Made by a program: the position numbers and the translations under genes | NCBI RefSeq assembly: GCF_040499845.1 | Contig: NZ_CP159342.1 | Coordinates: forward strand, 1,054,001-1,118,000 | DNA: 64,000 bases | Direction of reading: 5' to 3' | DNA from: Micromonospora sp. CCTCC AA 2012012 | Lineage (GTDB): Bacteria > Actinomycetota > Actinomycetes > Mycobacteriales > Micromonosporaceae | The notes under the pieces: generated by a model | The model's input: only the letters and a program-made list of their open reading frames with translations | Told to the model about the DNA's origin: nothing | The model's database searches: none | Shown here: positions 8,620 through 53,500 of the stretch, piece after piece | How positions within the stretch are numbered: the first letter of the stretch is position 1 | How the letters are laid out: every line of letters begins with the position of its first letter

Positions 8620-8956
8620 GGTTGAGGTCGCCCCCACCCTTTCCGGTCGCTCTGGCACTGATGCCACGCGTTCCCTGCGGATCCTTTTACCCCTCCAGCG
8701 TCGGTCGGCCGAGCTAGTAGATACCAGTGGAACTGTCCTGCGCGGTGACGACAAGCCGCCAGGAACCTGCGGAGAGCCCGCCGGTGCGGTCCCGAACAGT
8801 CGCCGCTCGCAACGACTCTCCTGCCGTAATCGGCTACCTTCAGTTCAACCCCGTATAGACGCTCTGGGTAGGACAGCCCCGACGAGGGCGGTTGCCCAAC
8901 GCCAACAGCGGGACGCAATCCACTCATGCAGCTGCCCGGCGAGCATCTGCGTGTTG
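8620..8956. other. Intergenic stretch, no feature seen
   Basis: 337 bp between the start of the 7531-8619 gene and the end of the VWA gene. It presumably contains the promoter for the former. No convincing gene or repeat is visible. Confidence 0.4.
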
Positions 8957-20730: not shown

Positions 20731-21660
20731 CTAATGGCTGGTGTCGGGGCGGGTGAAGCGGTGCGGGTTGGTGGCGGGGCTGTCGGGGCCATGGTCGCTG
20801 GGCAGCTCGTGCAGGCGCCGCCGCCGCCCCGGGTCGGTGGTGAGAGTCCACGCCGCTGCAGCCGGATGCTCGTCGTGCACGCCGGTGACGACCGGCATGG
20901 CGGTAGGGACGCCTGCCAGGGCATGCAAAAGGTTCGCCTCACGACGGCGGCTGCGCACGCGCAGCAAAACCGGGTAGCAGGGGCCCCCTTCGGCAAGACG
21001 CTCGTAGCCACGCAACTTCCGCAGCACCGTCGCCAAAGGCTCCGTGCCGTTGTCGTGCTCGAGGAAGAATCCCACCTCCCGTCCTTCGGCACGCCAGATG
21101 CCGTGCCCGTCCGGACGAACGCCGGCCATGGCGTAGGCGGCGGTGGCGTGCTGCTCGGACCACCACCGCGCCAACTCCACGTCGTCGCGATCGCGCGCGT
21201 AGGCGAGGAGGTCGGTGAAGAGTTGGTTGGTGCCCAGCAGGTGCGCCAGGCGACGACTCGCGACGATACGTTCCGTCCGGTCGATGCTGCTGCGCGGCGG
21301 TCGGGCATCGAGTCGGTCGGGATCGTTGTAGGCGGTGGGGTGGACCAGCATCCCCAGCGGTCCGAGGGCGTACAGGTATTGGCTGTCGCCGGTGGTGATG
21401 TCGACGAACCGGCTGACGGCGTCGATGGTGTGCAGAGTGGCCAACCGTAGGCGGGCAGAGCGGGGCGACGGGAACAGCGCCTCGGTGATCTGGTCGGTGG
21501 ACAGCACGTAGTGCTCGGCGAGCCACGCCAGGAGCTGCCGGTCGCGCATCGTCAATCGGCGCAGGTTATCCAGCCGGGAGCGGCGGCTGCTGACGCTGCG
21601 GGAGGCCAGAAGGCGAGGGTGCAGGGAGGGTGGGTGGAAGACCGGACGATCGGTAGACAC
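20731..21660 (-). CDS. Replication-relaxation (Replic_Relax) family protein
   Basis: 309 residues from GTG 21660, with GAAGGG upstream. Residues 28-90 form a winged helix (LTMRDRQLLAWLAEHYVLSTDQITEALFP), then H-L-L-G-T-N-Q-L-F-T-D-L. Next come W-W-S-E and R-A-E-G-R-E-V-G-F-F-L-E-H-D-N-G-T-E-P. This set is typical of the Replic_Relax family found next to VirD4-like genes on Gram-positive plasmids and integrative elements. The H-x-D-x-G-T-E segment is the conserved core. It may process or bind DNA for transfer or replication. It lies downstream of the coupling-protein gene on the same strand, 252 bp away. Confidence 0.85.
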   Translation of the reverse strand: MSTDRPVFHPPSLHPRLLASRSVSSRRSRLDNLRRLTMRDRQLLAWLAEHYVLSTDQITEALFPSPRSARLRLATLHTIDAVSRFVDITTGDSQYLYALGPLGMLVHPTAYNDPDRLDARPPRSSIDRTERIVASRRLAHLLGTNQLFTDLLAYARDRDDVELARWWSEQHATAAYAMAGVRPDGHGIWRAEGREVGFFLEHDNGTEPLATVLRKLRGYERLAEGGPCYPVLLRVRSRRREANLLHALAGVPTAMPVVTGVHDEHPAAAAWTLTTDPGRRRRLHELPSDHGPDSPATNPHRFTRPDTSH

Positions 21661-21689
21661 GATGCTTTCCCTTCAGGGGAATGGATGGT

Positions 21690-21707
21690 CCCCTCCTGTG
21701 GGAGGGG
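21690..21707 (-). terminator. Short hairpin between coupling-protein and Replic_Relax genes
   Basis: CCCCTCC and GGAGGGG arms with a 4-nt loop, about 210 bp past the stop of the coupling-protein gene on the minus strand. Weak on its own. It could end the secretion operon before the Replic_Relax gene. Confidence 0.35.
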
Positions 21708-21912
21708 TGTCTGGAATCTGCACGCGCGTGACCGTGGCCGGCGGCAGGCGTTTGAGCAGCACTGACAGGCCTCTGAGCGTGGCGGTCGCGGGTGGCCGGA
21801 GCTGACGGCTGATGGAAGGAGAGGTGAAGGGCCAACGGATGGGGCGGCGTCAGCTCGCCTCGGTAGCGCGGCGAGCGCAGAACACTCGTCGCCCTTACCT
21901 CGGCCGTCTCTG

Positions 21913-24426
21913 TCAGGAAGTGCCTCTGCCGCCTTTGGCCTTGGCGCTCGTGTCCTTGCGGGCATGCGACCACCGGTCCACCAGGGCGTCGATGGCGCTC
22001 GTGTTCTGCGGCCGCACCGTCCGCGCGGCGATCTCCCGGATCGCGGTGGCCTCACCGACGACCGGCTGAGGTGGGCGGGTACGCAGCGTGAACGCCGGGG
22101 TCTGCCGGCCGTCCACGACGAGACGGGTCGCAGCGGTGTACGCGTCGAGATGGGTCAGGTCGTGCTCGTCCAGCTCGGGCAGCGTGTGGCGGGCCAGGAC
22201 ACGGGCGTCTTCGGGGGCGCACGAGAAGTAGATCTTGTTGCGGGCGTTCGCCGACGCGGCGGCGAGGAGGTCCTTCGGGAACTGAGCGAGGTCCTGATGC
22301 GACAGCACCAGTGACAGCCGGTACTTGCGGGCCTCGGCGAGCATCGTGTCCAGACTGTTGGCCAGCGTCAGGAAGTTCTGCGCCTCGTCGATGATCAACG
22401 TAGCGTCGCGCCGCTTCTCCGGGGCCGTTCTGGCGCGGGCGGTGGCGGCCTGCCACACCTGCGCCAGGATCAGGGAGCCAAGAAGCTTGCTGGTGTCCTC
22501 CCCGAGTTGGCCCTTAGGGATCCGGACGAGGAGAGCTCCACCGTCGAGGACCTTGCCCATGTCGAAACTCGACTGCGGGTAGCGCATGGTGCGTTTGACG
22601 AAGTCGCGCAGCAGGAACGCCCGCAGGCGCGCCAGGACGGGCCCGATAACCTGCGACCGTAAGGCCGGGTTGAGCTCGTCGTACCACTGCCAGAAGCCGG
22701 ACAGGCCGGCCGGATCATCGAGGTCGACGGTCATCGCCGACCGAAACTGCGCGGAGTTGAGCAGCGGCGGGATGTGCTGCAGGGTGACGTTGGCGTGCCG
22801 CAGCAGAGTCAGACACGCCACCCGCATCACGTCGTCCATGCGGGGCCCCCACGCCTTCGCGAAGATGTTCCCGAAGATCGACACCAGGTTGTCGACCACG
22901 AGGTCGGGGTCGTCACCGGACAGCGGGTTGAGGGTGGGTGGATTCGGCTGGTCGGGGTCGAACAGGACGAGGCGGTCCGCGACCGAGGCGGGCAGCCGGT
23001 CCAGGATGTCCAACACCATGTCGCCGTGCGGGTCGATGACGACGGTGCCGCGGCCGGCCTTGATGTCGTCGACGGCCATGTTGACCAGCAGTGTCGTCTT
23101 TCCGCTGCCGGTGGAGCCGACGACGTGCAGGTGGTAGCGAGCGTCGGGGACGGCCAGGGCGACACCATGGCCGCCGACCTGCGCGTCACCGATCATCTTC
23201 GTGCCGCGCCCGCCCGTGGGCACCGCGACGGGGGTGGGCATGGACTTCGCCCGCGCCCGGTCCAGGCCGGGCACCGCCAGGTCGCGGGGCAGAGCGGCGA
23301 GGGCGGCCAGCTCGGGGGTCGAGGTGAGGAACCCAATGCCGAGCCGCCGCCGGGCGAGCACCGCGGCCGGATGCGGCATGCGGGTGCGGTGGGTGAGGCG
23401 GTTGCGGCCGGAGTAGACCGCGAAGGACGCGGCGACGGTGTCGGCGATACCCCGCAGCCGGGGCCGCTGGTCGGTGGCAACCCGCCGGCTGTCCTTACCG
23501 ATGGCGTACCGCACGGCGGTCTCCCACAGCGGGTGGGATGTCTTGTCGAGGATCGCCCGCACGTCCCGCTCCACCCCCGGATCCCGCCTTCCCACGGCGG
23601 GGCCGGACCGGGGTCGGGCGGAAGGTCCCGGTAGGAACACCTCGATGACCGCGAGCAGCGCGGCTGCCGGGTTGATGGTGGGGATGGGGGTCTTCCCGTC
23701 GCGCAGCCGGGCGGCGGCGCGACGTGCGCGCCGCACCCGGCGGGGTGCGGCGGGGCGGGCGAGGACCTGAACGCAGGCGTGCTCGTCGGCGCGTAGCTGG
23801 GATCCTGCGGACATCAGGGCCCGCAGCGGATCGTTGTCCTGGTCGGTGTCGAAGGGCAGCCATTCGGGGGCGGTGGGCAGCAGGTGCCCGCCGACTGCCG
23901 TCGGCACGTCGATGGGTATCGGTGGTGGGGGTGTGTCGTCGGTGGTGCAGGCGGCGCCCGGCCAGGCGGCGCGGACGGCGGCTTCGACGGCGCCGGGTGG
24001 GACGGTGCCGGGCACCCACATCGAGATGAGCAGCCGCCGGCCCGTCCAGGTGTACTGCCACACCACATGGGGGCTGCCGTAGAGGAGGCGGCGACGTCGG
24101 GACGGGGTGAGGGTGCCGGTGAGGTTCGCCCACAGGGCCGGCGCGCTGTGCGGGTCGACCTCCGGTGGCGGGGCGATCGTCACCAGGCGGGCGCCGTCGG
24201 CGTGCCGCCGATGCCGCCACCCGGCGAGCAGCTGGCGTCCGGCGACGGCGGCGATCAGGGCGGCGGCGGCCACGGCCAGCAGCCAGGGCCGCTGCTGCGC
24301 CCACCCAGCGGCGTCGAGGACCCACCGGGCCGGGACGCTCGAAGGCGCGACCACGCCGACGCCCGGCCCGGGCGGACCGGGCGTCGGCGTGGCGGATGAG
24401 AGAGTGATGCTGGCGGCCGTGATCAC
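21913..24426 (-). CDS. VirD4/TraG-like type IV coupling protein
   Basis: 837 residues. GTG 24426 overlaps the VirB4 stop (GTGA). A membrane helix lies near residues 35-65. The motor follows: Walker A G-S-T-G-S-G-K-T-T near 436-445, then V-V-I-D-P-H-G-D, then Walker B L-I-I-D-E-A-Q-N-F near 675-683, and S-H-Q-D-L-A-Q. These are typical of the DNA-translocating coupling ATPases that hand the relaxosome to the secretion channel. It is last in the 28.45-21.9 kb operon. The C-terminal 40 residues are Lys/Arg-rich. Confidence 0.92.
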   Translation of the reverse strand: MITAASITLSSATPTPGPPGPGVGVVAPSSVPARWVLDAAGWAQQRPWLLAVAAAALIAAVAGRQLLAGWRHRRHADGARLVTIAPPPEVDPHSAPALWANLTGTLTPSRRRRLLYGSPHVVWQYTWTGRRLLISMWVPGTVPPGAVEAAVRAAWPGAACTTDDTPPPPIPIDVPTAVGGHLLPTAPEWLPFDTDQDNDPLRALMSAGSQLRADEHACVQVLARPAAPRRVRRARRAAARLRDGKTPIPTINPAAALLAVIEVFLPGPSARPRSGPAVGRRDPGVERDVRAILDKTSHPLWETAVRYAIGKDSRRVATDQRPRLRGIADTVAASFAVYSGRNRLTHRTRMPHPAAVLARRRLGIGFLTSTPELAALAALPRDLAVPGLDRARAKSMPTPVAVPTGGRGTKMIGDAQVGGHGVALAVPDARYHLHVVGSTGSGKTTLLVNMAVDDIKAGRGTVVIDPHGDMVLDILDRLPASVADRLVLFDPDQPNPPTLNPLSGDDPDLVVDNLVSIFGNIFAKAWGPRMDDVMRVACLTLLRHANVTLQHIPPLLNSAQFRSAMTVDLDDPAGLSGFWQWYDELNPALRSQVIGPVLARLRAFLLRDFVKRTMRYPQSSFDMGKVLDGGALLVRIPKGQLGEDTSKLLGSLILAQVWQAATARARTAPEKRRDATLIIDEAQNFLTLANSLDTMLAEARKYRLSLVLSHQDLAQFPKDLLAAASANARNKIYFSCAPEDARVLARHTLPELDEHDLTHLDAYTAATRLVVDGRQTPAFTLRTRPPQPVVGEATAIREIAARTVRPQNTSAIDALVDRWSHARKDTSAKAKGGRGTS

Positions 24427-26213
24427 AGGTCGTCTCCCTCGTCGTCAAGATGAGCGAGGTCTGCCGGGCGGGTGGTGCACAACTGGTGCTCGGTGTCGGA
24501 GGCGATGGTTTCGAAGCTAGTCCGGTTGGTGCCGCAGATCAGCAGCCCTCGACCGACGCGCGCGGACAGCAGGAGCCGTCGTTCGCCGGCGGTCAGGCCG
24601 AACGGGTCACCGATGGCGTCGATGGCCTGCGGGGCCTGCTTGAGCAGCACCTGCGTGGCGGAGTTCGCGACGACAGCCTGACCGAGGTCGCTGCCCAAAA
24701 CGTCGGCGACGTCCTGGGTGATGACGGTCAATCCGGCGTGGCGCTTGCGGGCGGCCTTGGACATGCGGAACAGGAACCGGGCCCCTTCGCCGTCCCGCAT
24801 GAGCAGCCACGCCTCGTCCACCACCACCAAACGGCGCACCAGCCGGCGGGGGGCGTCGACCTGCCGCCAGATCGCGTCCAAGGCGAGGAGGGTGCCGATA
24901 GCGCGCAGCTCGTCGGGCAGGTGCCGCAGCGACCACACCACCAGGTGCCCGTCAGGGCGGGTGGTCGTTGGTCCGTCGAACAAGTTCGAGAACGACCCGG
25001 CCACCCAGGGGGCGAGGCGCGCGGCGAGCTGCCCGGCGGCAGGATCATCGTCGGCGTGCAGACGGTCCGCGAGGTCCCGCAGCAGCGGGGCGGGCCGGTG
25101 ATGGGTAGCGGGGTCGGCGGTGATGCCCGCGGCCCGGTAGACGGCGAGGATCGCCCGGTCCAGGGCGGCCCGCTCCCCGGGTGGCGGCTGCTGGCCGAGC
25201 AGCACGCTGACGAGGGTGTGCAGGAACAGGCCCCGACGGGTGAGCACGTCGGGGCGGGTGTCCCCGGCGGGCAGGTCGAACGGGTTGACCTTCACCCCGG
25301 CCGCTCCGAGGCGCACCACGGTGCCGCCGACGGCGTCGGCGAGGCGCAAGTACTCGTCCTCCGGGTCGATGACGGCGACCTGCACCTGCTGGTACAGGTT
25401 CCGCAGGATCTCCAGCTTCACGAAGTAGCTCTTGCCGGCGCCGGAGCGGGCCAGGACAACGGAGTTGTAGTTCTCCTGGGCCCAGCGGTCCCACCACACG
25501 ATGCCCCCGGAGTCGGGGTTGACGCCGTAGAGGATGCCGCCCTCGGCCGGGGGATCGCCGGGCAGCGGCGCGGGCAGATCCGCGCAGGCGAGCGGAAACG
25601 CGGCGGCCAACGCGGCGGTGTCCATGGTGCGGCGCACCTGCAGCAGGTCGGTGGCCAGGGGCAGGGTGGTGGTCCAGCCGGCGAGGTGCCGCCACGTGGC
25701 GGGCTGCACCTCGATCAGCGTCGACGCGGCGGCGGCTTTCACCTGCGCGCACGCGTCGAGGAGTTCGGCTTCGGTGCGGGCGTGCACGGTCAAGTAGAGC
25801 CCGACACGGAACAGCTTCGCCACGCCGCGAGCGAGCCGCCGGGCGAGGTCCGCAGCGTCATCTGCGGCGGCCTCCATCGACGGGTCGGACAGCTTGCCGG
25901 ACTCGGCATCAACCCGCCGGGAGGACTCGAAGCGGGCCCGCTGGTTCCGCAACCGGGACGCGGCGACCGGGGCGGGCAGAGGTTCGATGTGCAGGGCCAG
26001 GTCGAGGCGGCCCGGCCAGGACAGCAGCGGCTCCAACCAGGCCGGGCCGACCTCGGCCGGGTAGCCGGTGACCACGAGGGTCGCGGCGTAGCCGTCGCCG
26101 ACGCGCAGCATCCGCGGTGTCACCTCGACCGAGGCGGGAGCAACGGTGGCCGCCAACGCCGACGACTGCCGGCCACCGACGGTGGACGCACGGAAACGGG
26201 TGAGGGCCTTCAT
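24423..26213 (-). CDS. VirB4-like conjugation ATPase
   Basis: 596 residues from ATG 26213, whose ATGA overlaps the stop of the PrgI gene. Walker A R-S-G-A-G-K-S lies near 256-262 and Walker B V-V-V-D-E-A-W-L-L near 463-471, followed by T-Q-D-V-A-D-V. The N-terminal 230 residues carry the usual VirB4 region (G-Y-P-A-E-V-G, then D-L-A-L-H-I-E-P). The protein would energise assembly of the secretion channel at the inner face of the membrane. Length fits short Gram-positive VirB4 proteins. It sits between PrgI and VirD4 as in other actinobacterial systems. Confidence 0.92.
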   Translation of the reverse strand: MKALTRFRASTVGGRQSSALAATVAPASVEVTPRMLRVGDGYAATLVVTGYPAEVGPAWLEPLLSWPGRLDLALHIEPLPAPVAASRLRNQRARFESSRRVDAESGKLSDPSMEAAADDAADLARRLARGVAKLFRVGLYLTVHARTEAELLDACAQVKAAAASTLIEVQPATWRHLAGWTTTLPLATDLLQVRRTMDTAALAAAFPLACADLPAPLPGDPPAEGGILYGVNPDSGGIVWWDRWAQENYNSVVLARSGAGKSYFVKLEILRNLYQQVQVAVIDPEDEYLRLADAVGGTVVRLGAAGVKVNPFDLPAGDTRPDVLTRRGLFLHTLVSVLLGQQPPPGERAALDRAILAVYRAAGITADPATHHRPAPLLRDLADRLHADDDPAAGQLAARLAPWVAGSFSNLFDGPTTTRPDGHLVVWSLRHLPDELRAIGTLLALDAIWRQVDAPRRLVRRLVVVDEAWLLMRDGEGARFLFRMSKAARKRHAGLTVITQDVADVLGSDLGQAVVANSATQVLLKQAPQAIDAIGDPFGLTAGERRLLLSARVGRGLLICGTNRTSFETIASDTEHQLCTTRPADLAHLDDEGDDL

Positions 26214-27169
26214 CGGGGATCCTTCTTCCTGACGGTGGTCGTGTCCGGGCCGGTGATGACGGTGTCGGGGGCGGCGAGGCCACCGGGTCGCGGCGGCCGG
26301 TACGGGTCGGCGGCGGCGGCGACCGCCGCCGTCACGGCAGCGCCGTCGAGGGCGCGGGTGGTCACCCCGAGACCGGACAGGGCGCGGACGGTGTCGTCGG
26401 CGCGGCGGCGAGCGGCGTGCTCGCCCCGCTCGCCGGGGCTGGTGCGGGTGACGATGAGGACCTGCCGGCGCAGCGGGTCCCTGCGGGCGGCCAGGTCGTC
26501 GAGAAAACGGCCGTGGTCGGCCGCCGCGTCGGCCAGGGCCGGATGCGCCAGCGTGTTCGCCGCGCTGGTGAGAGCGCGGGCGGCCGAGTGCAGGTCCACC
26601 GGCTGCGCCGACACGACGACCTGCGTGGGCGTGGCCAGGCTGTTGAGCCAGCGGCCGAACGTGTCGACCAGGGCGGCCTGCTCGTCAGGAGTGCGCAGGG
26701 CCAGGTTGACGGTGGTCGCGGCGACCATCGCCGCCCGCGTCCCACCGAGCCGGATCTCCCCACCGTCGTCGATCGCGTCGGCGGGCAGCCTCAGCGGCGC
26801 CGGCAGCATCACCTGCGCCTTCGGCGCCTGCACCCAGTCGGGGGTCTTCGACGTCGTGTCGGTGGTCGACAGCGCCCGAGAGGCCCGGCGGTAGCGGACG
26901 GCGGCCAGCAGCCACACGTCCAGCGGCAGGCCGTCGCGACGGCCGACCGCGACACCGAACACCAACCCACCGACGACCACGCCGCCACCCATAAGCACCG
27001 ACACCGGCACGACGGTGTGCAGGCACCGCCACACGCCGTAGAAGGCGAGGGCGGCGACGGCGACGATCGCCAACTGCCGGAACGTCAGCCCGTAGGCGAC
27101 CGTGTCGGGGGCGTCAACATCAGCGGGCATCCGCGCCCGACCGACGTCACCTGCGTCGCGGGGCGTCAC
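26210..27169 (-). CDS. PrgI/VirB3-like protein
   Basis: 319 residues. GTG 27169 overlaps the stop of the TrbL-like gene (GTGA). The family segment M-P-A-D-V-D-A-P-D-T-V-A-Y-G-L-T-F-R-Q-L begins at residue 14, so ATG there is an alternative start. Two membrane helices follow (about 33-75). The remainder is a cytoplasmic domain with a Thr/Asp-rich linker and a helix-rich body. PrgI proteins link VirB4 to the membrane channel, and gene order supports this. The body is longer than a minimal VirB3, as is usual for actinobacterial forms. Confidence 0.85.
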   Translation of the reverse strand: MTPRDAGDVGRARMPADVDAPDTVAYGLTFRQLAIVAVAALAFYGVWRCLHTVVPVSVLMGGGVVVGGLVFGVAVGRRDGLPLDVWLLAAVRYRRASRALSTTDTTSKTPDWVQAPKAQVMLPAPLRLPADAIDDGGEIRLGGTRAAMVAATTVNLALRTPDEQAALVDTFGRWLNSLATPTQVVVSAQPVDLHSAARALTSAANTLAHPALADAAADHGRFLDDLAARRDPLRRQVLIVTRTSPGERGEHAARRRADDTVRALSGLGVTTRALDGAAVTAAVAAAADPYRPPRPGGLAAPDTVITGPDTTTVRKKDPR

Positions 27170-28071
27170 CGGGCCACCGCCCGCAGACCGGGAACCGCGC
27201 GGGTGACCTGCTGCACCAGGATCACCCGCACCGCGGAGCCGACCATGTTTGTCCCGCCGCCGCCCGACGTGGACACGACGCGGCGCATCAGCGCGGGAAC
27301 CCGCAGCGTGGTCCACAGCATGACCATCACGACGAACAGGTTGATCACCCCACCGGGTTCGACCGGCAGGCCGAGCACCGGCAGCAGATGGTCGGGGTCG
27401 GTGAGCATCCACTGCCCGGCATACAGGGTGAAGCCCTGCACCACCGGCACCGCCAACGCGCCAATGTAGGAGCGCCACCACAGGCGGGCGACCGCATCGG
27501 TCTGCGGGAGCGCGTGACACGCCAAAGCCAGGGGAGCGAACGCGGTCAGGACGAGAACAACAGCGAAGCGAACAATCACACTGAACGCGGTCGATGCCAC
27601 GAGGACGGCGATGATCGCCACGCAGACCACGAACAACAACACAACGCTCGAGTCCTGCCCGGCGGTAATGTGGGTCCTGATCGCCCGAAGGGCACTGTCG
27701 GTGTCGCCCTCGCCGGCGGTGAGGGTGGCGGTGAGGGCGTTGGCGAGGTCGATGACCATGTCGCACCACAGCTGCGAGAAGTGCGCGGCGACGAACCCCA
27801 CAATCAGGCGGGGGAGAAGGTCCTTGACCGTGTAGCGGGACCGCTCGTCACCACCGGCGGTCAGGGTGAGCACCCCCACGGCGACGAACGCGAGAACGAA
27901 GACGGTGTCCACGACAAGAACCGAACGGCCGGTCAGGGCCTGCACCTGCGGCAGGCCGGTGACGTTCGGGGTGACCAGCAGGGCGCTGCTGATCACACCG
28001 AACAGCGCGTCCAGGGCCGCGAGGATTCCCGTCGCCAGCCAGTCGAGGATCTGGTCGAGCAGCCAGCCCAT
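27166..28071 (-). CDS. TrbL/VirB6-like membrane protein
   Basis: 301 residues from ATG 28071, two bases after the pilin-like gene stop. Five to seven membrane helices are visible: about 15-35, 52-72, 85-105, 140-165, 170-190, 210-225 and 240-260. A W-W-R-S-Y-I-G-A-L-A-V-P-V-V-Q-G-F motif between helices is typical of TrbL/VirB6 channel subunits. The C terminus is basic. It forms the polytopic core of the secretion channel. It overlaps the PrgI gene by 4 bp. Confidence 0.85.
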   Translation of the reverse strand: MGWLLDQILDWLATGILAALDALFGVISSALLVTPNVTGLPQVQALTGRSVLVVDTVFVLAFVAVGVLTLTAGGDERSRYTVKDLLPRLIVGFVAAHFSQLWCDMVIDLANALTATLTAGEGDTDSALRAIRTHITAGQDSSVVLLFVVCVAIIAVLVASTAFSVIVRFAVVLVLTAFAPLALACHALPQTDAVARLWWRSYIGALAVPVVQGFTLYAGQWMLTDPDHLLPVLGLPVEPGGVINLFVVMVMLWTTLRVPALMRRVVSTSGGGGTNMVGSAVRVILVQQVTRAVPGLRAVAR

Positions 28072-28073
28072 GG

Positions 28074-28454
28074 TCAGCCCCCGACGATGCCCTGAACGAC
28101 CTGCAACAGCACCGGCGCCAGGACAGCCAGGCCGTAGCCGACCAGCGCGTTCTTCAACGCGCCCTTGGCCCGCTCGACCTGCGCCGGGTCACCGCCGGCC
28201 GTGGCCCAGTAGACACCCGCGAGCACGAGGAACAGGGTGGCCAACCCGGCGAGCATGCCGACCAGCCACACCTGCAGGTTATGCACGACCACCGGCAGGG
28301 AGTTCACCGCCAGCACCGGCGCGCCGGTGTCGGCGTACGCGGCGGCAGGCACGCACAGGACCAACACGCCGGGGCCGGCAACAGCGGCGACGCGGCCCGC
28401 GACACGGGTCATAGGGGAGTGGAGGAGGACACGACAACGAAGGATGCGGAACAT
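28074..28454 (-). CDS. Pilin-like (VirB2/TrbC-type) membrane protein
   Basis: 126 residues from ATG 28454, chosen because GGAGGTGAAC lies 11 nt upstream. A signal-like helix ends with A-A-Y-A-D (about 23-43), then two membrane helices about 53-80 and 97-123 separated by the short basic loop GGDPAQVERAKG. The pattern of signal plus two helices and small size matches VirB2-type pilins. It heads the secretion operon, upstream of which lies a 280-bp leader containing one copy of the 35-bp inverted repeat. Confidence 0.8.
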   Translation of the reverse strand: MFRILRCRVLLHSPMTRVAGRVAAVAGPGVLVLCVPAAAYADTGAPVLAVNSLPVVVHNLQVWLVGMLAGLATLFLVLAGVYWATAGGDPAQVERAKGALKNALVGYGLAVLAPVLLQVVQGIVGG

Positions 28455-28733
28455 GGGCGGGTTCACCTCCGGCTCCACCCCCGCCAGGGGTGGAGCGTCG
28501 AAACGGCGGGCATGGATGCCGCCGCCGGGCCCGGGAGACAGGGCGTCATCGAACCGCGACAGACCCCGGGAGGAGCACGTCCTCCCTGTCGGATGTACGG
28601 GTATCGGTGAGGTGTCAGCGCACCAAGACGGCGCGGCACCCGAGGTGCCCGGCTCGCGTCACCCCACCTCGGGGCCCGGCGACGGACGGAACCTCCCGAG
28701 CGGCACATCAGCACCGTAGGAAAGGTTCCGCAC

Positions 28734-28768
28734 CCTCAAACCGGCGTTTGTCAGCTCTGGCGGACACC
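28734..28768. repeat. 35-bp inverted-repeat copy 1, upstream of secretion operon
   Basis: Exact reverse complement of 30632-30666. Read towards the secretion operon it begins GGTGTCCGCCAGAGCTGACA. It lies 280 bp upstream of the pilin-like gene. Likely a shared promoter or operator element. Confidence 0.85.
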
Positions 28769-29071
28769 CCCCGACCTGACGGGCGGCTGGCAGCGGGGCG
28801 GCACGTCTGACAGCTCCACCGGATCGCATCTCCGAGACGGGTGGGTTGCGTTACGGACAGCGCGACGGTCAACTCCCGGTTCGGGTCAATCGGTATTGGT
28901 GTCCTGTGCCAGGCCCCGCCCGTCCGATCGCGCCGAGGCCCACGACACAACCCGCGATCCCGCGTCGCACCAGGTCCCACAGCGAGGCTGGCTACCAGGT
29001 CCAGCCCGGTGCGGCGCCGAGCTGGACCGCCACGCTCGCGCGTACTGCGGTAGGGAAGGGCGGCGACAGCA

Positions 29072-29107
29072 GAGGCGGGGTCCGAGCTCGCGCTCGGACC
29101 CCGCCTC
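29072..29107. terminator. Perfect 16-bp hairpin after sigma-like gene
   Basis: GAGGCGGGGTCCGAGC and its exact reverse complement flank a 4-nt loop. It starts 16 bp beyond the stop of the 29124-29981 minus-strand gene and fits a strong terminator. No T-run. Confidence 0.75.
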
Positions 29108-29123
29108 GAGAACATCTCCCAGG

Positions 29124-29981
29124 TCAGGCAGCGGCGGCCGCCGGGCCGGACGTGGTGGTGGCGCGGCCCGCGCGGGTCCGCTCCCGGTGCACGGCCTGAT
29201 TCTGCAGCTGCGCCCGGGCCGCCGGGGACACCACGCTCGTGAGCAGTCCCTTGGCGAGGGCATCCGCGATCCGCTCATCGATGCCGTTCATCCGTTTGCG
29301 CAGCGCGTCGACGGTGATGCCCAGACGCGCGGCGATCGGTTCGATCGCCCTACGGCCGAGCCGCAGGTCGATGTACGGGTCGAGGTCGGTGTGCTCGAGC
29401 AGCCCGAGTCGGGCGGCGCGGCGCACCAGCAGGTCGGGATGGCCGTAGGGAACGTGGGGGGTGCGGGGGCCGGTGACGTGCTCGACGTCCTCCACCGGCA
29501 CGGCAGGGCCGGTGCGGCGCAGCATCTCGTGTCCGGCCCGCCACGCGGCCATGCACAGCGCCGCGTGCGGGGCAGGCTTGGCCAGGTCGACATGGTCGCG
29601 CAGCGCGGTGAGGAAACCGGTGAGGATCTCCGCGTCGAGGTCGTCGGCATCACCGGACCAACCGGCACGCAGGTGACCGGCGTGCCGGCGCAGCGCGGGC
29701 ATCGCCATCGCCACCGCAGCGATCACCCACGACGGGCCGTCGAGACGGGCGCGACGGACCAGCTCCCGCCACACCGCGTCACGCGCCGCGTAGGCGTCAG
29801 GACGGCGCAGCAGCCAGTCCCGCAGCGCCGGAAGTGCCATGACACCAGCCGGTAGGCCCGTGTCATGGCCGAGGCTGTCCAGGTCGAGTGTCATCGGGGC
29901 GGGACCAGTGGTCAACGCCGTGAAGGCCGCATCGACGGCGTCAAACGGCGAGGCAGGCCAGTCCGGGTCGGACACGGTCAT
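29124..29981 (-). CDS. Sigma-70-like DNA-binding protein (hypothetical)
   Basis: 285 residues from ATG 29981, with GGAG 9 nt upstream. ATG 29996 is an alternative. The frame further upstream is Arg/Ser-rich shadow over a motif-dense intergenic region. Residues 85-165 are helix-rich with a sigma region-2 feel. Residues about 215-265 (LGRRAIEPIAARLGITVDAL, then RKRMNGIDERIADAL) look like a helix-turn-helix. I infer a sigma-like or replication/transfer regulator. It sits between the two operons sharing the 35-bp repeat and is the best candidate to act on the TGACA sites. Confidence 0.6.
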   Translation of the reverse strand: MTVSDPDWPASPFDAVDAAFTALTTGPAPMTLDLDSLGHDTGLPAGVMALPALRDWLLRRPDAYAARDAVWRELVRRARLDGPSWVIAAVAMAMPALRRHAGHLRAGWSGDADDLDAEILTGFLTALRDHVDLAKPAPHAALCMAAWRAGHEMLRRTGPAVPVEDVEHVTGPRTPHVPYGHPDLLVRRAARLGLLEHTDLDPYIDLRLGRRAIEPIAARLGITVDALRKRMNGIDERIADALAKGLLTSVVSPAARAQLQNQAVHRERTRAGRATTTSGPAAAAA

Positions 29982-30706
29982 GTCCACACACTCCATGTCA
30001 TCGATGAATAGCCGAGGAGGTGGGCCCCGGCGCCGAAGGCACTGATTGCGCCACAACGACCTCACAGGCCTCTGACAACAGGCCGAGGCGTCGAGGACGC
30101 CACGGGCCGCGCGGACCTGACAGACACCGGCGGCCACCGGCGTCGACTCTGACAACGGTCTGACAAAGTGGCCTTGACCTGCGAACTGACACTGCCAGAC
30201 TGATGGTGACAGCAGCCGCGCCCATGGATTGGACAGCCGCGCCGCGCGCCCCCGCAGGGCCGGCAGCGGTCTGACAAAACTTGGCCGTGACGGCCCGGCC
30301 GCCTCTGACAAAACGCCGGCGTCAGACATCGCCGGCCTGACGGCGGCATGCCACTCCGCGGGGCGAACCGCTCGGACAGCAGCGCCGCCGGACGACATGA
30401 CACCGCCGCGCTGTCATCGACGACACCATGCCGGCATGACACGGCGCGGCGCCGGCCGACAGCGCCGGCCACGCATCGGTGTCACAGGCATCCGCCGTGT
30501 CCGGGGCGGGATTGTCGGTCATCTTCTGTCAGGGCCGTGTCGTCAACTGCCGCGCCGCCGGTCCGTGCTGCACCCGAACGGCCTGCCTACGGTCCCAGCG
30601 GTGGTGCTGTCAGACCTCTGTCAGATCGAGAGGTGTCCGCCAGAGCTGACAAACGCCGGTTTGAGGATGTCAGCGCACCACGGCGCGGCGCGGAGCCCAC
30701 ATCCAG
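29982..30706. promoter_or_regulatory. 725-bp intergenic region dense in TGACA motifs
   Basis: No gene is visible. TGACAA occurs at 30073, 30150, 30161, 30272, 30306 and 30647. TGACAG, TGACAC and TGTCAG variants lie between them. It separates the sigma-like gene from the methyltransferase operon. It may be a control region, an iteron-type origin or a transfer origin. The choice is open. Confidence 0.55.
30632..30666. repeat. 35-bp inverted-repeat copy 2, upstream of methyltransferase operon
   Basis: Exact reverse complement of 28734-28768. It ends 40 bp before the start of the 30707 gene. It is directed the same way towards its operon as copy 1 is towards the secretion operon. A 12-nt GTCAGCGCACCA stretch follows and also occurs at 28614. 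Confidence 0.85.
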
Positions 30707-31600
30707 ATGAGCGAGCACACGCCGCAGCCCCACCCCGACCCTGCCCCACCCGTCGACCCCCACCAGGTCGACCCGACCCTGATCGACCTGGTCGCCGGCG
30801 ACCCGCCGGTACCCATCACCGTGTGGCGCACCGCCCGCACCGACGCCGACACCGGCCACAGCATCGGCGCCCGCCTGGCCTACCGGCTCGTCGCCGCCTA
30901 CAGCCGCCCCGGCGACGCCGTCATCGACCTCACCGGCGACCACGCCCTGACCGCCGTCTGCACCACCGGCGCCCGCCGGCACCACCCGGGCTGGTTCACC
31001 GACGCATCCAGCCTGACCATCGGACCGGCCACCCCGCCCACCCGCCCCGACCCGACCACCAGACCCGATGACAGCAGCGGCGACCTGCCGGACATGAGCA
31101 CCTGGTTCGGCGACGACCTCACCGACCCCGACCTGCCCACCAGCCACCCCGGTGACACGGCACTTGCCGAGGCGACCAGCCTGGTCGTTGCCTGCTGGCC
31201 CCTCGACCCCACCGACACCACCAACCGGAACCGCCTGGCCTGGCTGCTGACCGCATGCGCGCGGCTACTGCGCCCCGGCGGCTGCCTCGTCCTCGTCGTC
31301 ACCGCCCCCCACGGCGGCGTCGCACCAGAGGACTTCACCCCGGTGACCACCGCCGCCGCAGCCGTCGGCCTGGGCTACCTGCAACACCTCGTCGCCGTCG
31401 CCGCGGACACCGACGGCGACACCTTCGTCTACCACGTCACCGACGAGGAACTCCTCACCCTCGCCCAGCAGGCCAGCCACCCAAGGACGGTGGCGCACCT
31501 GCGCGTCCACGCCGACCTGCTCGTGTTCAGCCCGACCACACCACCATCCCCCGCCTCGCAGAGGCAGCGCCGCCGGAAGGGCGGTGACCACCGTGGCTGA
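30707..31600 (+). CDS. Methyltransferase-like protein without clear catalytic motif
   Basis: 297 residues from ATG 30707. Residues 50-75 resemble the SAM-binding start of DNA methyltransferases (A-Y-R-L-V-A-A-Y-S-R-P-G-D-A-V-I-D-L-T-G-D). Residues about 170-190 contain L-L-R-P-G-G-C-L-V-L-V-V, the late strand of a Rossmann methyltransferase. No N/D/S-P-P-Y/F motif is seen, so catalysis is doubtful. Its 3' end overlaps the next methyltransferase gene by 17 bp. It may be a partner or specificity subunit, which is inference. Confidence 0.65.
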   Translation: MSEHTPQPHPDPAPPVDPHQVDPTLIDLVAGDPPVPITVWRTARTDADTGHSIGARLAYRLVAAYSRPGDAVIDLTGDHALTAVCTTGARRHHPGWFTDASSLTIGPATPPTRPDPTTRPDDSSGDLPDMSTWFGDDLTDPDLPTSHPGDTALAEATSLVVACWPLDPTDTTNRNRLAWLLTACARLLRPGGCLVLVVTAPHGGVAPEDFTPVTTAAAAVGLGYLQHLVAVAADTDGDTFVYHVTDEELLTLAQQASHPRTVAHLRVHADLLVFSPTTPPSPASQRQRRRKGGDHRG

Positions 31601-32552
31601 CACCCCTTCCCCCGCCGACCCCAGCCAGCCGGCGATCCCGGCGCAGGACACCCAGCACCACGACGACGCCCACCGCCACACGCCCGACGGGCCGGGGGAC
31701 CTGTCGGTTTGGGCGACCGCGCAGCGCACCGGGCCGGTGCAGCGCCGCGGCCGGTACGTACCCGAATCGGTGAAGCATCCCGCGCGGATGCTGCCGGCGA
31801 TCGCGGCGCACGCCGTGCACGCCTACACCCGGCCCGGGGACCTGGTTCTCGACCCGATGTGTGGGATCGGCACCACCCTCGTCGAGGCGGTCCATGCGGG
31901 CCGCGACGCGATCGGTGTGGAGTACGAGCCGCGCTGGTCGAACATCGCCGACGCCAACATCACCCACGCCCACCACCAGGGTGCCACCGGCCGCGCCTCC
32001 GTGGTCCGCGGGGACGCCACCCGGCTGCGGCACCTTCTGCCCGCGGCCCTCACCGGGCAGGTGGCCCTCGTGGTCACGTCACCGCCGTACGGGCCCACCG
32101 TCCACGGCCTCGTGCGGCCCGGCGTCGACGGGGTGACGAAGTTCGACAACGCCTACAACGACGGCACCGACAAAGGCAACCTCGCCTACCGGGACCTCAC
32201 CGGCCTCACCGACGGCTTCGCGCACATCCTGTCCGGCTGCGCGACCCTGCTGCGTCCGGGCGGCACGGTCGTGGTCACCGCCCGGCCCTGGCGGAAGAAC
32301 GGCCACCTGGTCGACCTGCCGTCGGCGGTCATCGCCGCCGGCGTTCGCGCCGGCCTGACACCGACCGAACGGTGCGTCGCGCTCCTGGCCGCCGTCCGCG
32401 ACGGGCACCTCGTCGCCCGCCCGTCGTTCTTCCAACTCCAAGCCATCCGAAAGGCCCGCACCGCCGGCACCCCCCTGCACCTCATCACCCACGAAGACGT
32501 CCTGATCTTCACCAAAACCCAGCCCGACGCGCCCGGGGCCGCCGATGACTGA
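31584..32552 (+). CDS. Site-specific DNA methyltransferase (N4-cytosine/N6-adenine type)
   Basis: 322 residues from GTG 31584, with GGAAGGGCG just upstream, inside the end of the previous gene. Motif I is D-P-M-C-G-I-G-T-T (about 93-101). The catalytic motif is T-S-P-P-Y-G (about 167-172), followed by L-L-R-P-G-G-T-V-V-V-T. No restriction endonuclease is encoded nearby, so I infer a solitary methyltransferase that may shield the element from host restriction during transfer. It is the second gene of the plus-strand operon. Confidence 0.88.
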   Translation: MTTVADTPSPADPSQPAIPAQDTQHHDDAHRHTPDGPGDLSVWATAQRTGPVQRRGRYVPESVKHPARMLPAIAAHAVHAYTRPGDLVLDPMCGIGTTLVEAVHAGRDAIGVEYEPRWSNIADANITHAHHQGATGRASVVRGDATRLRHLLPAALTGQVALVVTSPPYGPTVHGLVRPGVDGVTKFDNAYNDGTDKGNLAYRDLTGLTDGFAHILSGCATLLRPGGTVVVTARPWRKNGHLVDLPSAVIAAGVRAGLTPTERCVALLAAVRDGHLVARPSFFQLQAIRKARTAGTPLHLITHEDVLIFTKTQPDAPGAADD

Positions 32553-32600
32553 CGACCAGCCCCGACGCACCGACACCCGCCAGACCGCGCGGGAGGTGGC

Positions 32601-33762
32601 GTGAGTGACCTCCAACCCGGGCCCCGAGTCGGATCGCTGTGCACCGGCTACGGCGGACTCGACCTGGCCGTCGAACTGGTGCTCGGCGGCCGGCTCACCT
32701 GGTACGCCGAAACCGACCGACACGCCCGCACCGTCTGCGCCCACCACTGGCCCGACGTGCCGAACCTCGGCGACATCCGCACCATCGACTGGACCCACGT
32801 CGCGCCCGTCGACGTCCTCACCGCCGGGTTCCCCTGCCAAGACATCTCCAACGCCGGGAAACGCGCCGGCATCACCGGCCCCCACTCCAGCCTCTGGTTC
32901 CACATCACCGCAGCCCTTCGCGTTCTTCGACCACCGGTCGTCTTCGTGGAGAACGTCGCCGCCCTGCGCCGACGCGGACTCGACACCGTCCACACCGACC
33001 TGGCCACGCTCGGGTACGACACGAGCTGGCTATGCCTACGCGCATCCGACATCGGCGCACCCCACCGACGCGACCGGCTGTTCCTCCTCGCCACCACCGG
33101 GGGAGAAGCCCCCCACACTGCCCACACCCTGCGCCCGTGACGGCAAAGGACCCGGCCACCACCACGGGCTACCCGACCTCATCGAACCCCACGGCACCCG
33201 TCACCACCTACTCCCGACACCCCGCGCCACCGACACCGGCACCCCCGGCCGCCGCGCCGGACCCGGCTTCCGACCACCCCTGTCCCAAGTCCTACTGCCC
33301 ACACCCCGCGCCACCGACGGACACAAAGGCTGCCCCGGACAACGCGGCTCCCACGGAGACCTCACCCTGCCGTCGGCCGCCGTGCACCTGCCCACGCCCC
33401 GCGCTTCCGATGCGCACGGCGCCGGACACCACGGCGACGGCGGACCCGACCTACGCACCACCATCGCCCACCTCACCCTCGGTGTCGTCGACGACGCTAC
33501 GTGGGGCGCCTACGCACCCGCCATCGCCCGCTGGGAACTCCTGACCGGCCGCCCCGCCCCCGCACCCACCCAACCCGGCCAGCACGGCAAATCGGTCCTC
33601 GCCCCACCGTTCGTGGAATGGCTCCTGGGCCTGCCCGCGTACTGGGTCACCGATCCCACGCTGGCTCTGCCACGAACCGGAGCGCTGCGCGTCCTCGGTA
33701 ACGGCGTCGTGCCCGCCCAGGCGGCCGCCGCCCTGAATCTTCTCCTGAACCGCCACCGCTGA
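32601..33762 (+). pseudogene. C5-cytosine DNA methyltransferase, frameshifted
   Basis: The N-terminal part reads from GTG 32601 (GGGAGG upstream): motif I C-T-G-Y-G-G-L-D-L, catalytic G-F-P-C-Q-D-I, E-N-V, and R-R-D-R-L-F-L-L-A. It then meets a stop at 33140. The next frame carries the rest to 33762, including three LPTPRA(T/S)D repeats of the target domain and R-V-L-G-N-G-V-V-P-A-Q at the C terminus. The shift is of one base near 33090-33125, a GGGGG / CCCCCC region. This is either a sequencing error or a real inactivation. A full product would be about 386 residues. Confidence 0.85.
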
Positions 33763-40709: not shown

Positions 40710-41276
40710 ATGGACTCTGCGAAGGAGCAATTCACCGGGCTGTACGAGCGTCATCACGGTGACGTGTGGCGGTACGTCGCTCGGCGGGTCATCGCGTCTG
40801 ACGTTGGTGATGTTGTCGCCGAGGTTTTCCTTGTGGCGTGGCGACGCTTGGGTGATGTGCCGGACGGGTCGGCGTTGCCGTGGCTGTACGGCGTGGCGCG
40901 TTTGGTGCTTGCCAACGAGTCCCGGGGCCGTCGGCGGTGGCAGGAGTTGACGCTGCGGGTGGCGTCGGAGCCGGGTCAGGTGGTCGTGGTGGATCATGCG
41001 GACGGGGTGGCAAGCCAGCGTGACGTCGCGGTGGCGTTCCACCGGTTGCCTGTGGGTGATCGGGAGATCCTGCGGCTGGTGGCGTGGGAGCGGTTGACCC
41101 TTGTCGAGGCGGCGGCCGTGCTGGGCCAGTCGCGGACGACGTTCGCGATGAGGCTGATGCGAGCCCGCCGTCGGTTACGAGCGCAGCTCGGCGCGGCGAG
41201 CGACGAGGCGGGGCGGACGCCGAGTGTGGCGCCGTCGTTGTCGAGTGGGGGTGTGAGGCATGCGGGCCGTGGATGA
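40710..41276 (+). CDS. ECF-type sigma-70 factor
   Basis: 188 residues from ATG 40710, with GGAGG 5 nt upstream. Region 2 spans about 5-75 (F-T-G-L-Y-E-R-H-H-G-D-V-W-R-Y-V-A-R-R, then A-E-V-F-L-V-A-W-R-R-L). Region 4 spans about 105-155 (R-L-P-V-G-D-R-E-I-L-R-L-V-A-W-E-R-L-T-L-V-E-A-A). The product directs RNA polymerase to a small regulon. The next gene overlaps by 17 bp and probably encodes its regulator. Confidence 0.9.
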   Translation: MDSAKEQFTGLYERHHGDVWRYVARRVIASDVGDVVAEVFLVAWRRLGDVPDGSALPWLYGVARLVLANESRGRRRWQELTLRVASEPGQVVVVDHADGVASQRDVAVAFHRLPVGDREILRLVAWERLTLVEAAAVLGQSRTTFAMRLMRARRRLRAQLGAASDEAGRTPSVAPSLSSGGVRHAGRG

Positions 41277-50562: not shown

Positions 50563-53500
50563 ATGGGCGGTCAGCGTGTTCATGCCGCGCGTCGTGGGGC
50601 GACCGGGCAGAGTTCGGCCCGGTCCGGCGTCCGTCGCCTGGCCACTGTGCTGGTGGTGGTGCTGGCGCTCCTCACAGCCGCGCCCCGTCAATCGATGCCG
50701 CCCACCGTTGGTAGTGGCTGGCCGCTTAGCTGGTTGACCAGCGTGTGGTCGCTGCGTGCGTCCTGGGGCGCTGAGCCGTCCACCCCGCAGCAGAAGTCTG
50801 GTAAGGCGTCCGGCGGGCACTACGTGCCGGCGGCTCGGGTCCGCGCCCGACCGAGCGGAGAACGGGCCAAGGGCGAACTCGCCCGCTTCCAGCCGCACCG
50901 GCCGACCTCTCAGGTGCGGACGACCGGACCCGGCCGGCAGGGCTACAACGTCCGCACCAGTAAGCGGTTGATGCCGGCCTCCACCGCCACCACCGACGTC
51001 TTCCAGAATGCTGATGGCTCAGTCACCCGGCGCGTCTACCAACGGCCGGTCAACTGGCGTGACACCGACGGCACCTGGCACGCCATCGACTCGACGATCG
51101 TTCAGCGACCCGACGGCCGCTTCACCGTCAAGGCCCACCCGCTCGGCGTCACCTTCGCCGCCACCGGTACGACCGGGCAGCCCCTGGTTGATGTAGCGCT
51201 CGATAGCGACCGCAGCCTCGGCTATGACCTGGCCGGTGCGACTCTGGGCACCACCCGGGTCGACGGCACCGAACTCACCTACGAGCGGGTCCTGCCCGAT
51301 GTGGACGTCCGGCTCGCAGCGGCCGGCACCGACATCAAGGAGAGCCTGGTCCTGCGCTCGGCGCAGGCGCCTACCGAGTACGTCTACCCGCTGCATCTGC
51401 GCGGGCTGACCGCCCGCATCGACGAGGACGGCAACGCCGTGTTCGTCGGGCCGGACGGTTCGGAGGCCGCCCGGATGCCGGTCGGCTACCTCGAGGACGC
51501 CAGCGTCGACGCCTCCGGCGTCGGCGCCATTTCGCACGCCGTGCGATACGACCTCGTCCCGTACGGGGCCGGGCAGGCGCTGAAGGTCACCGTCGACGGT
51601 GCTTGGTTGCGCGATCCGAAGCGGAAGTTCCCGGTGCTGCTGGATCCGTCCACCGGGACGATCAAGACGGCAACCGGCGACACCTACGTGCAGTCGGACG
51701 TCACGGAAAGCCAGCGCTACACCGAGGACAACGTGGCCGCCGGCACGTTCAACGGGACCGCCACCGGCAAGGCGCGGGCCCTGCTGCCGTTCTCCACCTT
51801 CGGTACTACGTACGCGGGCAAGAAGCTCAGCGCGGCCGACCTGAACGTGTTCATGAGCTACCAGGGAATCGGCAACGGGGTTTGCGTCGCCCGCCGTTTC
51901 GACGTCTATCGGGTGACGCAGAACTGGTGGGCCTCCAGCGTCAAGTTCAACACGTTCCCTTCACTGTCGGGCTCCATCGGCAATGCTTCGCCCTCCAGTA
52001 CGGCCGCGTGCGGAAACAGCGCCAAGACCCGAAACGTGGGTACGTGGGTGTCGGTGCCGTTGACCGTCAGCGAGGTCAACGAGTGGGTGACCGGCGGTGG
52101 CACCTACGGGCTGGCAATCCAGGCCAGTGAGACAGACACCGCGGCGTGGAAGCGCTTCACCTCGGCGGACTCGCCGCTGAACTGCACGCACGCCACCTAC
52201 GGCACGATCTCCTGTACGCCGTTCATCGACGTCACCTACACCGACAACGTCGCCCCGCAGGTCGACGTGCGCTACCCGGCGGACAACTACACCGTCGGCA
52301 CGCTCACTCCGGAGCTGGCCGCGAGCGGTCACGACTCCGACGCCTGGCCGAATAAGGGTTTGCGCTACACGTTCGTGGTCAAGGATTCCGCGGGCACCCA
52401 GGTCGCGACCTCCGGCTGGGTGACGACCGGGGTCTGGAAGGTGCCAGCGGGCGTGCTGGCCTGGGGCAAGACCTACACCTACACGGTGCAGGTCAACGAC
52501 TGGTCCACCACCGGTCCGGCCTCGCCGGTGGCATACGCCTTCACCACCGCGGTTCCGCAGCCGATGATCAGCGCGGATCTAGCGCAGAACGGCGGTAAGG
52601 GTTACGAGGCGAGCACCGGCAACTACACCACCTCGGACAGCGACGCCGAGGTCGCCACCGCCGGTCCCGCGCTGTCGATCAGCCGTGACTACAACAGCCG
52701 GGACGTTCGGGCCGACAGCGCGTTCGGCCAGGGTTGGTCGTCGCTGCTCGACATGCAGGTGCGGGAGGAGCCTGACCCGACCGGCACGGTGCAGACCGTC
52801 GCGGTGCGGTACCCCTCGGGGGAGGAGATCGCGTTCGGCCGCAACACCGACGGCACATTCACACCGCCGTCCGGCCGCTTCTCCGTATTCAAGCCGATGA
52901 CCGGCGGATACTCGCTGACCGACAAGGACGCCACAGCCTACGAGTTCACCCGGTCGGTCGGCGGGGGCGTCTACCGGCTCACCCGGATCGCGGACGCGTC
53001 CGGCCGCGCCGAGAACCTGCGCTACGACACCAACGGACTGATCGACCTGATCACGTCAGCCTCATCGGGGCGAACCCTGGCCGTGACCTGGTCCACCCCC
53101 ACCGGCGCCGCCGACCCCCACGTGGCGACGGTCACCACCGACCCTGTCACCCCAGGCGATTCCACCACTCGTCTGACGTGGAACTACGGGTATGACAAGG
53201 ACCTGCTGACCAGGGTATGTCCCCCCGGCACGACCACCGACTGCACCCGGTACGAGTACACCAATGCATCGCAGTACGAGGCGACCACCCTCAACGCCGG
53301 TCCGTACTCGTACTGGCGGTTGACCGAACCGGCTGGTGCAACCAGCGCGATGAGCGCGGTCCTCTCCAACGACGGCGCCGACAACGCCACCTACAACAAC
53401 ATCACCCTCGGCACGTCCGGCCCATTGGCCAGCTCGGCGGCGACAGCGGCCACCTTTAACGGCACCAGCTCCAGCATGCAGCTCCGGCAAAAGTTGGTCA

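Follow-up and report, generated by a model that had tools for sequence, protein, structure and literature searches.

Two promoter-like sites in inverted orientation flank a gene for a sigma-like protein in a likely integrative and conjugative element of Micromonospora

We analyzed 64,000 nucleotides of the Micromonospora sp. CCTCC AA 2012012 genome (contig NZ_CP159342.1, positions 1,054,001 to 1,118,000), referred to below as the window, in which genes for a type IV secretion system (T4SS) and for methyltransferases (MT) diverge from a region that contains an inverted repeat and the gene for a sigma-like protein (29124-29981; Table 1). This gene is the single conserved gene recognized between the two repeat copies. 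The Pfam matches of the T4SS genes (P-loop_TraG, T4SS_pilin, TrwB_AAD_bind, and Replic_Relax) provide the T4SS ATPase, pilin, coupling protein, and relaxase expected of a T4SS-type integrative and conjugative element (ICE); we take Replic_Relax to be the MOBC relaxase family. Six int/xis queries gave no integrase or excisionase gene (int/xis) in the window, so the element may be incomplete here; relatives of these genes are present in a second element of the same genome. The plasmid records searched gave no match.

The starting point was a prediction, made from the sequence, that a 35-bp perfect inverted repeat lies upstream of both operons. Positions 28734-28768 and 30632-30666 are indeed exact reverse complements, and the copies are oriented equally toward their own operons, the MT operon being read from 30707 (+) and the first T4SS frame from 28478 (-). 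At 35 bp this is the longest exact inverted repeat of the window; the next is 20 bp when the two sites are masked, and the longest in 12 first-order Markov simulations was 16-17 bp, which rules out a simple chance repeat. The inverted likeness reaches 64 nt at 86% identity (28731-28794 and 30606-30669). Each arm lies within a conserved site of about 42 bp that ends at an operon leader, the left arm inside the T4SS core and the right arm inside the MT core. The original prediction also listed a shared stretch, GTCAGCGCACCA, at 28614 and 30669. This stretch is present at both positions, each time on the + strand and hence in opposite orientation relative to the respective operons; it starts at the core edge on the MT side, and on the T4SS side it occurs as its reverse complement, about 105 nt past the core. 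The 12-bp stretch GTCAGCGCACCA is part of other conserved leader elements and not of the duplicated site.

Read in the operon direction, the site has the consensus TGTGAG-nn-CGGCAGGTGTTCGCCAGAGCnCACAAACGCCGGTTTGAGGGTG. When the 6.73-Mb genome was scanned with a model built from 77 sites, four strong sites were found, and the next match had an E value of 0.19. The four are the window pair and a pair at 4,642,225-4,645,907 in a related element (L005); the two elements share 64-83% identity over four compared proteins. Alignment of the sigma-like protein finds 64 loci, which, grouped by record titles, comprise 43 from Micromonosporaceae and 21 from other Actinomycetes. When the 43, the window, and L005 were searched for the site before both operons, as the original prediction had proposed, 34 of the 45 loci had both sites, nine had one, and two had none. 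All 34 pairs diverge; 28 of these loci are ICE-type and six are of the integrative and mobilizable element (IME) type. The site pair was not found in the distant relatives. The spacing between sites flanking the sigma-like gene ranges from about 1.5 to 12.5 kb. At its lowest cut-off (21/31), an anchor scan gave 81 matches and none in the reversed control sequence; four weak matches (window 37326, L015 3180, and one each in L054 and L056) were dropped as unlike the core, although the reversed control does not exclude them. Sites are present in 88 of 300 genomes of the family, and in a phylum sample of 296 genomes, which lists one other genome of the same genus, they were found in the source genome only.

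Free divergence of the two copies in related elements, which would have spoken against the original prediction, was not what we found. Sites of one element are more alike (0.872 identity) than other pairings (0.754), a value reached in 0 of 10,000 permutations; the permutation leaves relatedness in, and the partial correlations given below address relatedness in part. In bins of 6 bp, own-pair identity is 0.84-0.97 in six of the seven core bins and 0.68 in one. It is 0.20 in the bin just beyond the core on the leader side and declines more slowly upstream.

The occurrence and the variation of the sites are both linked to the sigma-like protein. Of the 300 family genomes, 55 encode a close homologue (E<=1e-100), and every one of these has sites, as do 33 of the other 245; at E<=1e-70, five homologue-bearing genomes lack them. 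Over 72 distinct loci, distances between sites correlate with distances between sigma-like proteins (rho 0.56; 0 of 2000 permutations as high). The partial correlation of sites with the sigma-like protein is 0.45 given TrbL (53 loci), 0.53 given MT2 (52 loci), and 0.48 given MT1 (56 loci), with 0 of 1000 permutations as high in each case. Given the sigma-like protein, the values are 0.06 for TrbL, 0.10 for MT2, and 0.11 for MT1 (244, 54, and 77 of 1000). In these comparisons, the sites vary with the sigma-like protein rather than with TrbL, MT1, or MT2. Residue-level covariation of the protein with the site gave no clear outcome either way.

An AlphaFold model of the 285-residue protein (pLDDT 77.8, pTM 0.55) contains a predicted sigma2-like part at about residues 64-158 and a predicted sigma4-like part at about 181-245, in that order. 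Sigma factors account for 48 of the 50 Foldseek matches listed (best E 0.024) and for all 50 matches listed after re-alignment of the Foldseek matches (VIA), and the closest folds include Escherichia coli sigmaE and domain 4 of Mycobacterium tuberculosis SigD. The predicted fold thus looks like that of a sigma factor rather than that of a classical operator-binding protein. Sequence searches do not recognize it: the protein itself has no Pfam match, none of 30 homologues matched Sigma70_r2 or Sigma70_r4 (Pfam, NCBIfam), and a sequence search of solved structures gave no relevant match (best E 0.34). Nine of the 21 distant relatives were scanned (ten had been prepared, and L065, which contains an unknown residue, was left out), and three of the nine had a sub-threshold Sigma70_r4 match. 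Because sequence profiles fail to recognize the protein, it is referred to here as sigma-like and is not assigned to the sigma-70 family. In four of the nine distant relatives scanned (L052, L053, L054, and L057), the sigma-like frame continues in frame into a T4SS pilin (399-476 aa) in a fusion-like arrangement.

The genes behind the sites were surveyed in a site-bearing set of 76 loci (L080-L155), 23 of which repeat elements of the first set. At a score of 40 or more this set has 138 sites, and recognition of the downstream gene was limited to a chosen query list. The sites are followed by the methyltransferase-operon gene MT1 (41), T4SS pilin/TrbL (39), relaxase-like Replic_Relax (25), or excisionase-like (xis-like) genes (23), by no recognized gene (8), or by a contig edge (2), so that a gene of one of these four kinds lies behind 128 of the 138. 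In all 13 loci where the T4SS, MT2, and int/xis were all seen, int/xis follows MT2 and shares its strand.

Upstream of the cores, hexamers of the TGTSAG family read toward the operons. Within 50 bp they lie in the operon direction by 62 to 1 on the MT side (38 sites) and by 71 to 0 on the T4SS/relaxase side (36 sites), most commonly at -9, -19/-20, and -29; in the 600 bp upstream of the sigma-like gene, 210 lie in the gene direction and 59 in the other (34 loci). Elements differ in whether the S of the hexamer is G or C, and an inverted hexamer is also found inside the core. In some of these site and hexamer counts, the T4SS label includes the relaxase side of the six IME-type loci (L021, L022, L023, L027, L038, and L049).

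Some loci resemble satellites. In 22 of them, sites are present with no sigma-like, T4SS, or MT gene within the fetched stretch, and 20 of these have int/xis and/or Replic_Relax genes. In nine more, which lack T4SS and MT genes, the sites are accompanied by the sigma-like gene and Replic_Relax. Some genomes with satellite-like loci hold a sigma-bearing element elsewhere (e.g., G126 and G259), and it is possible that such loci use the regulator of a helper ICE. Three of the 22 loci, each from a different genome, have two adjoining site pairs of different type, with TGACA and ACACA spacers (L082 7079-8818, L083 6779-8441, and L084 436-2548). Their inner two sites face each other about 87-553 bp apart with no recognized gene between them, and read-through transcription between them is a guess on our part. 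The first two L083 sites scored low with the weight matrix (24.9 and 31.3; 26/31 in the anchor scan) and, being below the cut of 40, are outside the 138. In L082, many TGACAT/ATGTCA-like repeats of another spelling were read by eye between the outer sites (7940-8640).

We consider it probable that the inverted repeat represents two promoter copies for an element-encoded, sigma-like master regulator, a private pair within a Micromonosporaceae ICE. The comparative basis for this proposal is the sites, their conservation, the gene positions, the link with the sigma-like protein, and its predicted fold. The sigma-like protein would join host RNA polymerase and start transcription at both core sites, from a putative promoter with a GTTCGCC-like box, 15 bp, and a CGGTTT-like box and with a start near the point where the leaders diverge. 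The T4SS/relaxase operon and the MT operon would then come on together. The TGTSAG hexamers, about 10 bp apart upstream of the cores and before the sigma-like gene, are probably binding sites of a second regulator. Smaller elements that lack both the sigma-like gene and the T4SS, and in which these sites precede relaxase-like and xis/int genes, would probably answer a helper ICE's regulator. The earlier idea of a duplicated promoter/operator for joint control is largely favored by the comparative evidence, and the suspicion that fell on the 29124-29981 product agrees with it; the product, though, looks sigma-like in predicted fold. Because int/xis lies behind the MT operon in relatives, joint control would cover excision as well as transfer and methylation.

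At E<=1e-10, no sigma-like match was obtained in eleven of the site-bearing genomes, and five of these are one-contig assemblies (G106, G140, G165, G231, and G249). This fits satellites awaiting a helper; equally, it shows that sites persist without the regulator. It also suits an alternative that we regard as unlikely, in which the cores are operators of another element regulator (such as Replic_Relax acting through a winged helix, or whatever binds the TGTSAG arrays), host sigma transcribes the operons, and the sigma-like protein does other work. The hexamer arrays and the inverted in-core hexamer do look like binding sites, Replic_Relax occurs in both ICE-type and IME-type loci, and one member has a weak winged-helix match. 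This alternative does not account for site variation that follows the sigma-like protein when TrbL, MT1, and MT2 are compared. A search of 28400-30800 gave no sigma-70 consensus promoter, which carries little weight because shuffles also expect 0.0.

The sigma-like gene could also sit on a mobile or invertible segment, with the inverted pair and its abrupt outer edge as terminal inverted repeats or recombination sites. Site spacing varies, and the sigma-like gene is reversed relative to the pilin gene in 7 of 70 loci, or 5 of 54 when each distinct locus is counted once (L016, L032, L034, L087, and L119), as inversion between the repeats would give. We give this reading little credence, given the narrow set of genes behind the sites, the single sites before xis/int or relaxase-like genes, hexamers that read toward the operons, and the recognition of only the sigma-like gene between the window sites. 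Barely any credence, in our judgment, belongs to a replication, partition, or transfer origin made up of iteron-like repeats and paired sites: the repeats are dense (between the sites, CTCACA is enriched 15.5-fold and CTGACA 7.8-fold) and a conserved structured block lies nearby, but in three places the repeats are oriented with the gene closest to them, and the cores border on the operon leaders and vary with the sigma-like protein.

Taken further, the promoter proposal would mean that a highly diverged element-encoded sigma factor with a private promoter class runs conjugation in many Micromonosporaceae elements, and that satellites pirate it by promoter mimicry, some stacking two promoter types for either of two helper classes. 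We hold this extension tentatively and would put it at slightly under an even chance.

Promoters of extracytoplasmic function (ECF) sigma factors have a characteristic two-box spacing geometry. The present system resembles ECF sigma factors in the order of its predicted sigma2- and sigma4-like parts and in its promoter-sized two-box site; it differs in having an extra N-terminal part and no Sigma70 profile match, in having strong sites in its own genome only in two elements, and in the position of the gene between its two proposed target operons. Helper regulators with satellites are a known scheme, and what is unusual here is the type of regulator. SetCD is the regulator of SXT/R391 ICEs. In the AcaCD regulon of IncA/C plasmids and their SGI1/MGI satellites, as described in the sections consulted of PMC7826253 and PMC5704250, the helper's regulator triggers satellites that carry its promoters; AcaCD is an FlhDC-family activator complex (PMC7826253). 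As far as those sections go, the likeness lies in an element-encoded master regulator that switches transfer on and in target promoters before xis and other satellite genes, and the sites in satellite-like loci would likewise be a helper regulator's targets. The difference is that here, in Actinomycetes, the regulator would be a protein with a sigma-like predicted fold and no Pfam match that acts on a promoter pair of its own, and that two site types stand in tandem in some satellite-like loci. Actinobacterial ICEs are integrating conjugative elements and include T4SS types, according to PMC3218068, whose main text contains 'sigma factor', 'promoter', and 'inverted repeat' 0 times. A Streptococcus pyogenes tet(O) fragment IME bears a sigma-70 gene, listed as a carried gene (PMC5704250); it is similar as a mobile element with such a gene, and it differs in that the passage concerned states no transfer control. 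Searches of the open PubMed Central literature, as far as its accessible text goes, turned up no account of a T4SS ICE in Actinobacteria that has a sigma factor for its master regulator. If the proposal is true, these elements form an actinomycete ICE and satellite family with a private sigma factor as on-switch, and would provide a marker for hidden satellites, a handle on the timing of transfer switch-on, and a natural series of co-changed sigma-promoter pairs.

Table 1. Positions and strands of features in the window
Feature	Positions	Strand	Remarks
T4SS genes	20731-28478	-	Pilin, TrbL, PrgI, VirB4-like, coupling protein, Replic_Relax protein
T4SS-leader block	28564-28645	-	Conserved, structured; three helices; includes the 28614 stretch
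T4SS-operon core site	28731-28772	-	Promoter-like; GTCCGCC (28759-28765), 15 bp, CGGTTT (28738-28743); putative box assignment
Hexamers upstream of T4SS core	28774-28830	-	TGTSAG family, TGTCAG type, in operon direction; exact copy at 28807
Hairpin	29072-29107	.	Perfect, 16 bp; between sigma-like gene stop and T4SS site
Sigma-like protein gene	29124-29981	-	285 aa; between the two sites; proposed regulator
Hexamer array upstream of sigma-like gene	30072-30310	-	Seven TGTCAG, all in gene direction
Hexamers upstream of MT core	30608-30624	+	Two TGTCAG (30608, 30619), in operon direction
MT-operon core site	30628-30669	+	Promoter-like; GTCCGCC (30635-30641), 15 bp, CGGTTT (30657-30662); putative box assignment
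MT operon leader	30670-30706	+	Start TCAGCGCACCA directly after core, kept in relatives
Methyltransferase genes	30707-33762	+	MT1 (without Pfam match), MT2 (N6_N4_Mtase), gene3 (function not recognized)

The leaders behind the cores are themselves conserved. With each distinct leader counted once and the six IME loci left out, 47 of 56 MT leaders open with TCAGCGCA (offset 0 or 1); among the T4SS-labelled leaders, 55 of 56 have TGCGCTGA at +90 to +139, and 54 of 56 have a GGGAGGA hairpin. The block of about 80 bp in the T4SS leader has the helices CCTC/GAGG, GGTG..GCGC/GCGC..CACC, and GGGAGGA/TCCTCCC. In alignment A5 (29 leaders, again excluding the six IME loci), 99.7% of the helix cells pair, and informative variation is confined to helix 1 (two double-sided pair changes; 0 of 500 shuffles). 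Rfam gave no match to the block, and single-strand folding of the window's T4SS leader was no more stable than that of shuffles (z -0.16). The block is a candidate leader RNA or origin of transfer (oriT). Pairing between the start of the MT leader and the T4SS leader RNA was considered and rejected: complementarity is common, but elements with the MT leader TCAGCGCT keep TGCGCTGA in the T4SS leader, and the three neighboring bases match in only 28 of 63 elements, repeated elements included, a level reached or exceeded in 135 of 5000 permutations, so that covariation does not support it.

The hairpin behind the sigma-like gene may be the end of its transcript. Because it separates this gene from the T4SS site, it suggests that the T4SS genes need a promoter of their own. 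The single Rfam match, to BjrC68 at 29077-29102, is sub-threshold (23.7 bits against a gathering cut-off of 39; E 0.0044); it corresponds to this hairpin and was judged to be due to chance. Beyond gene3 (34221-61383), the window encodes an HTH_36 protein, an Imm35-like protein, a LuxR-type regulator, a DUF4265 protein, an M48 peptidase, and an NB-ARC/TPR protein, together with a true ECF sigma factor (40710-41276) and a reading frame of 3606 aa (50563-61383).
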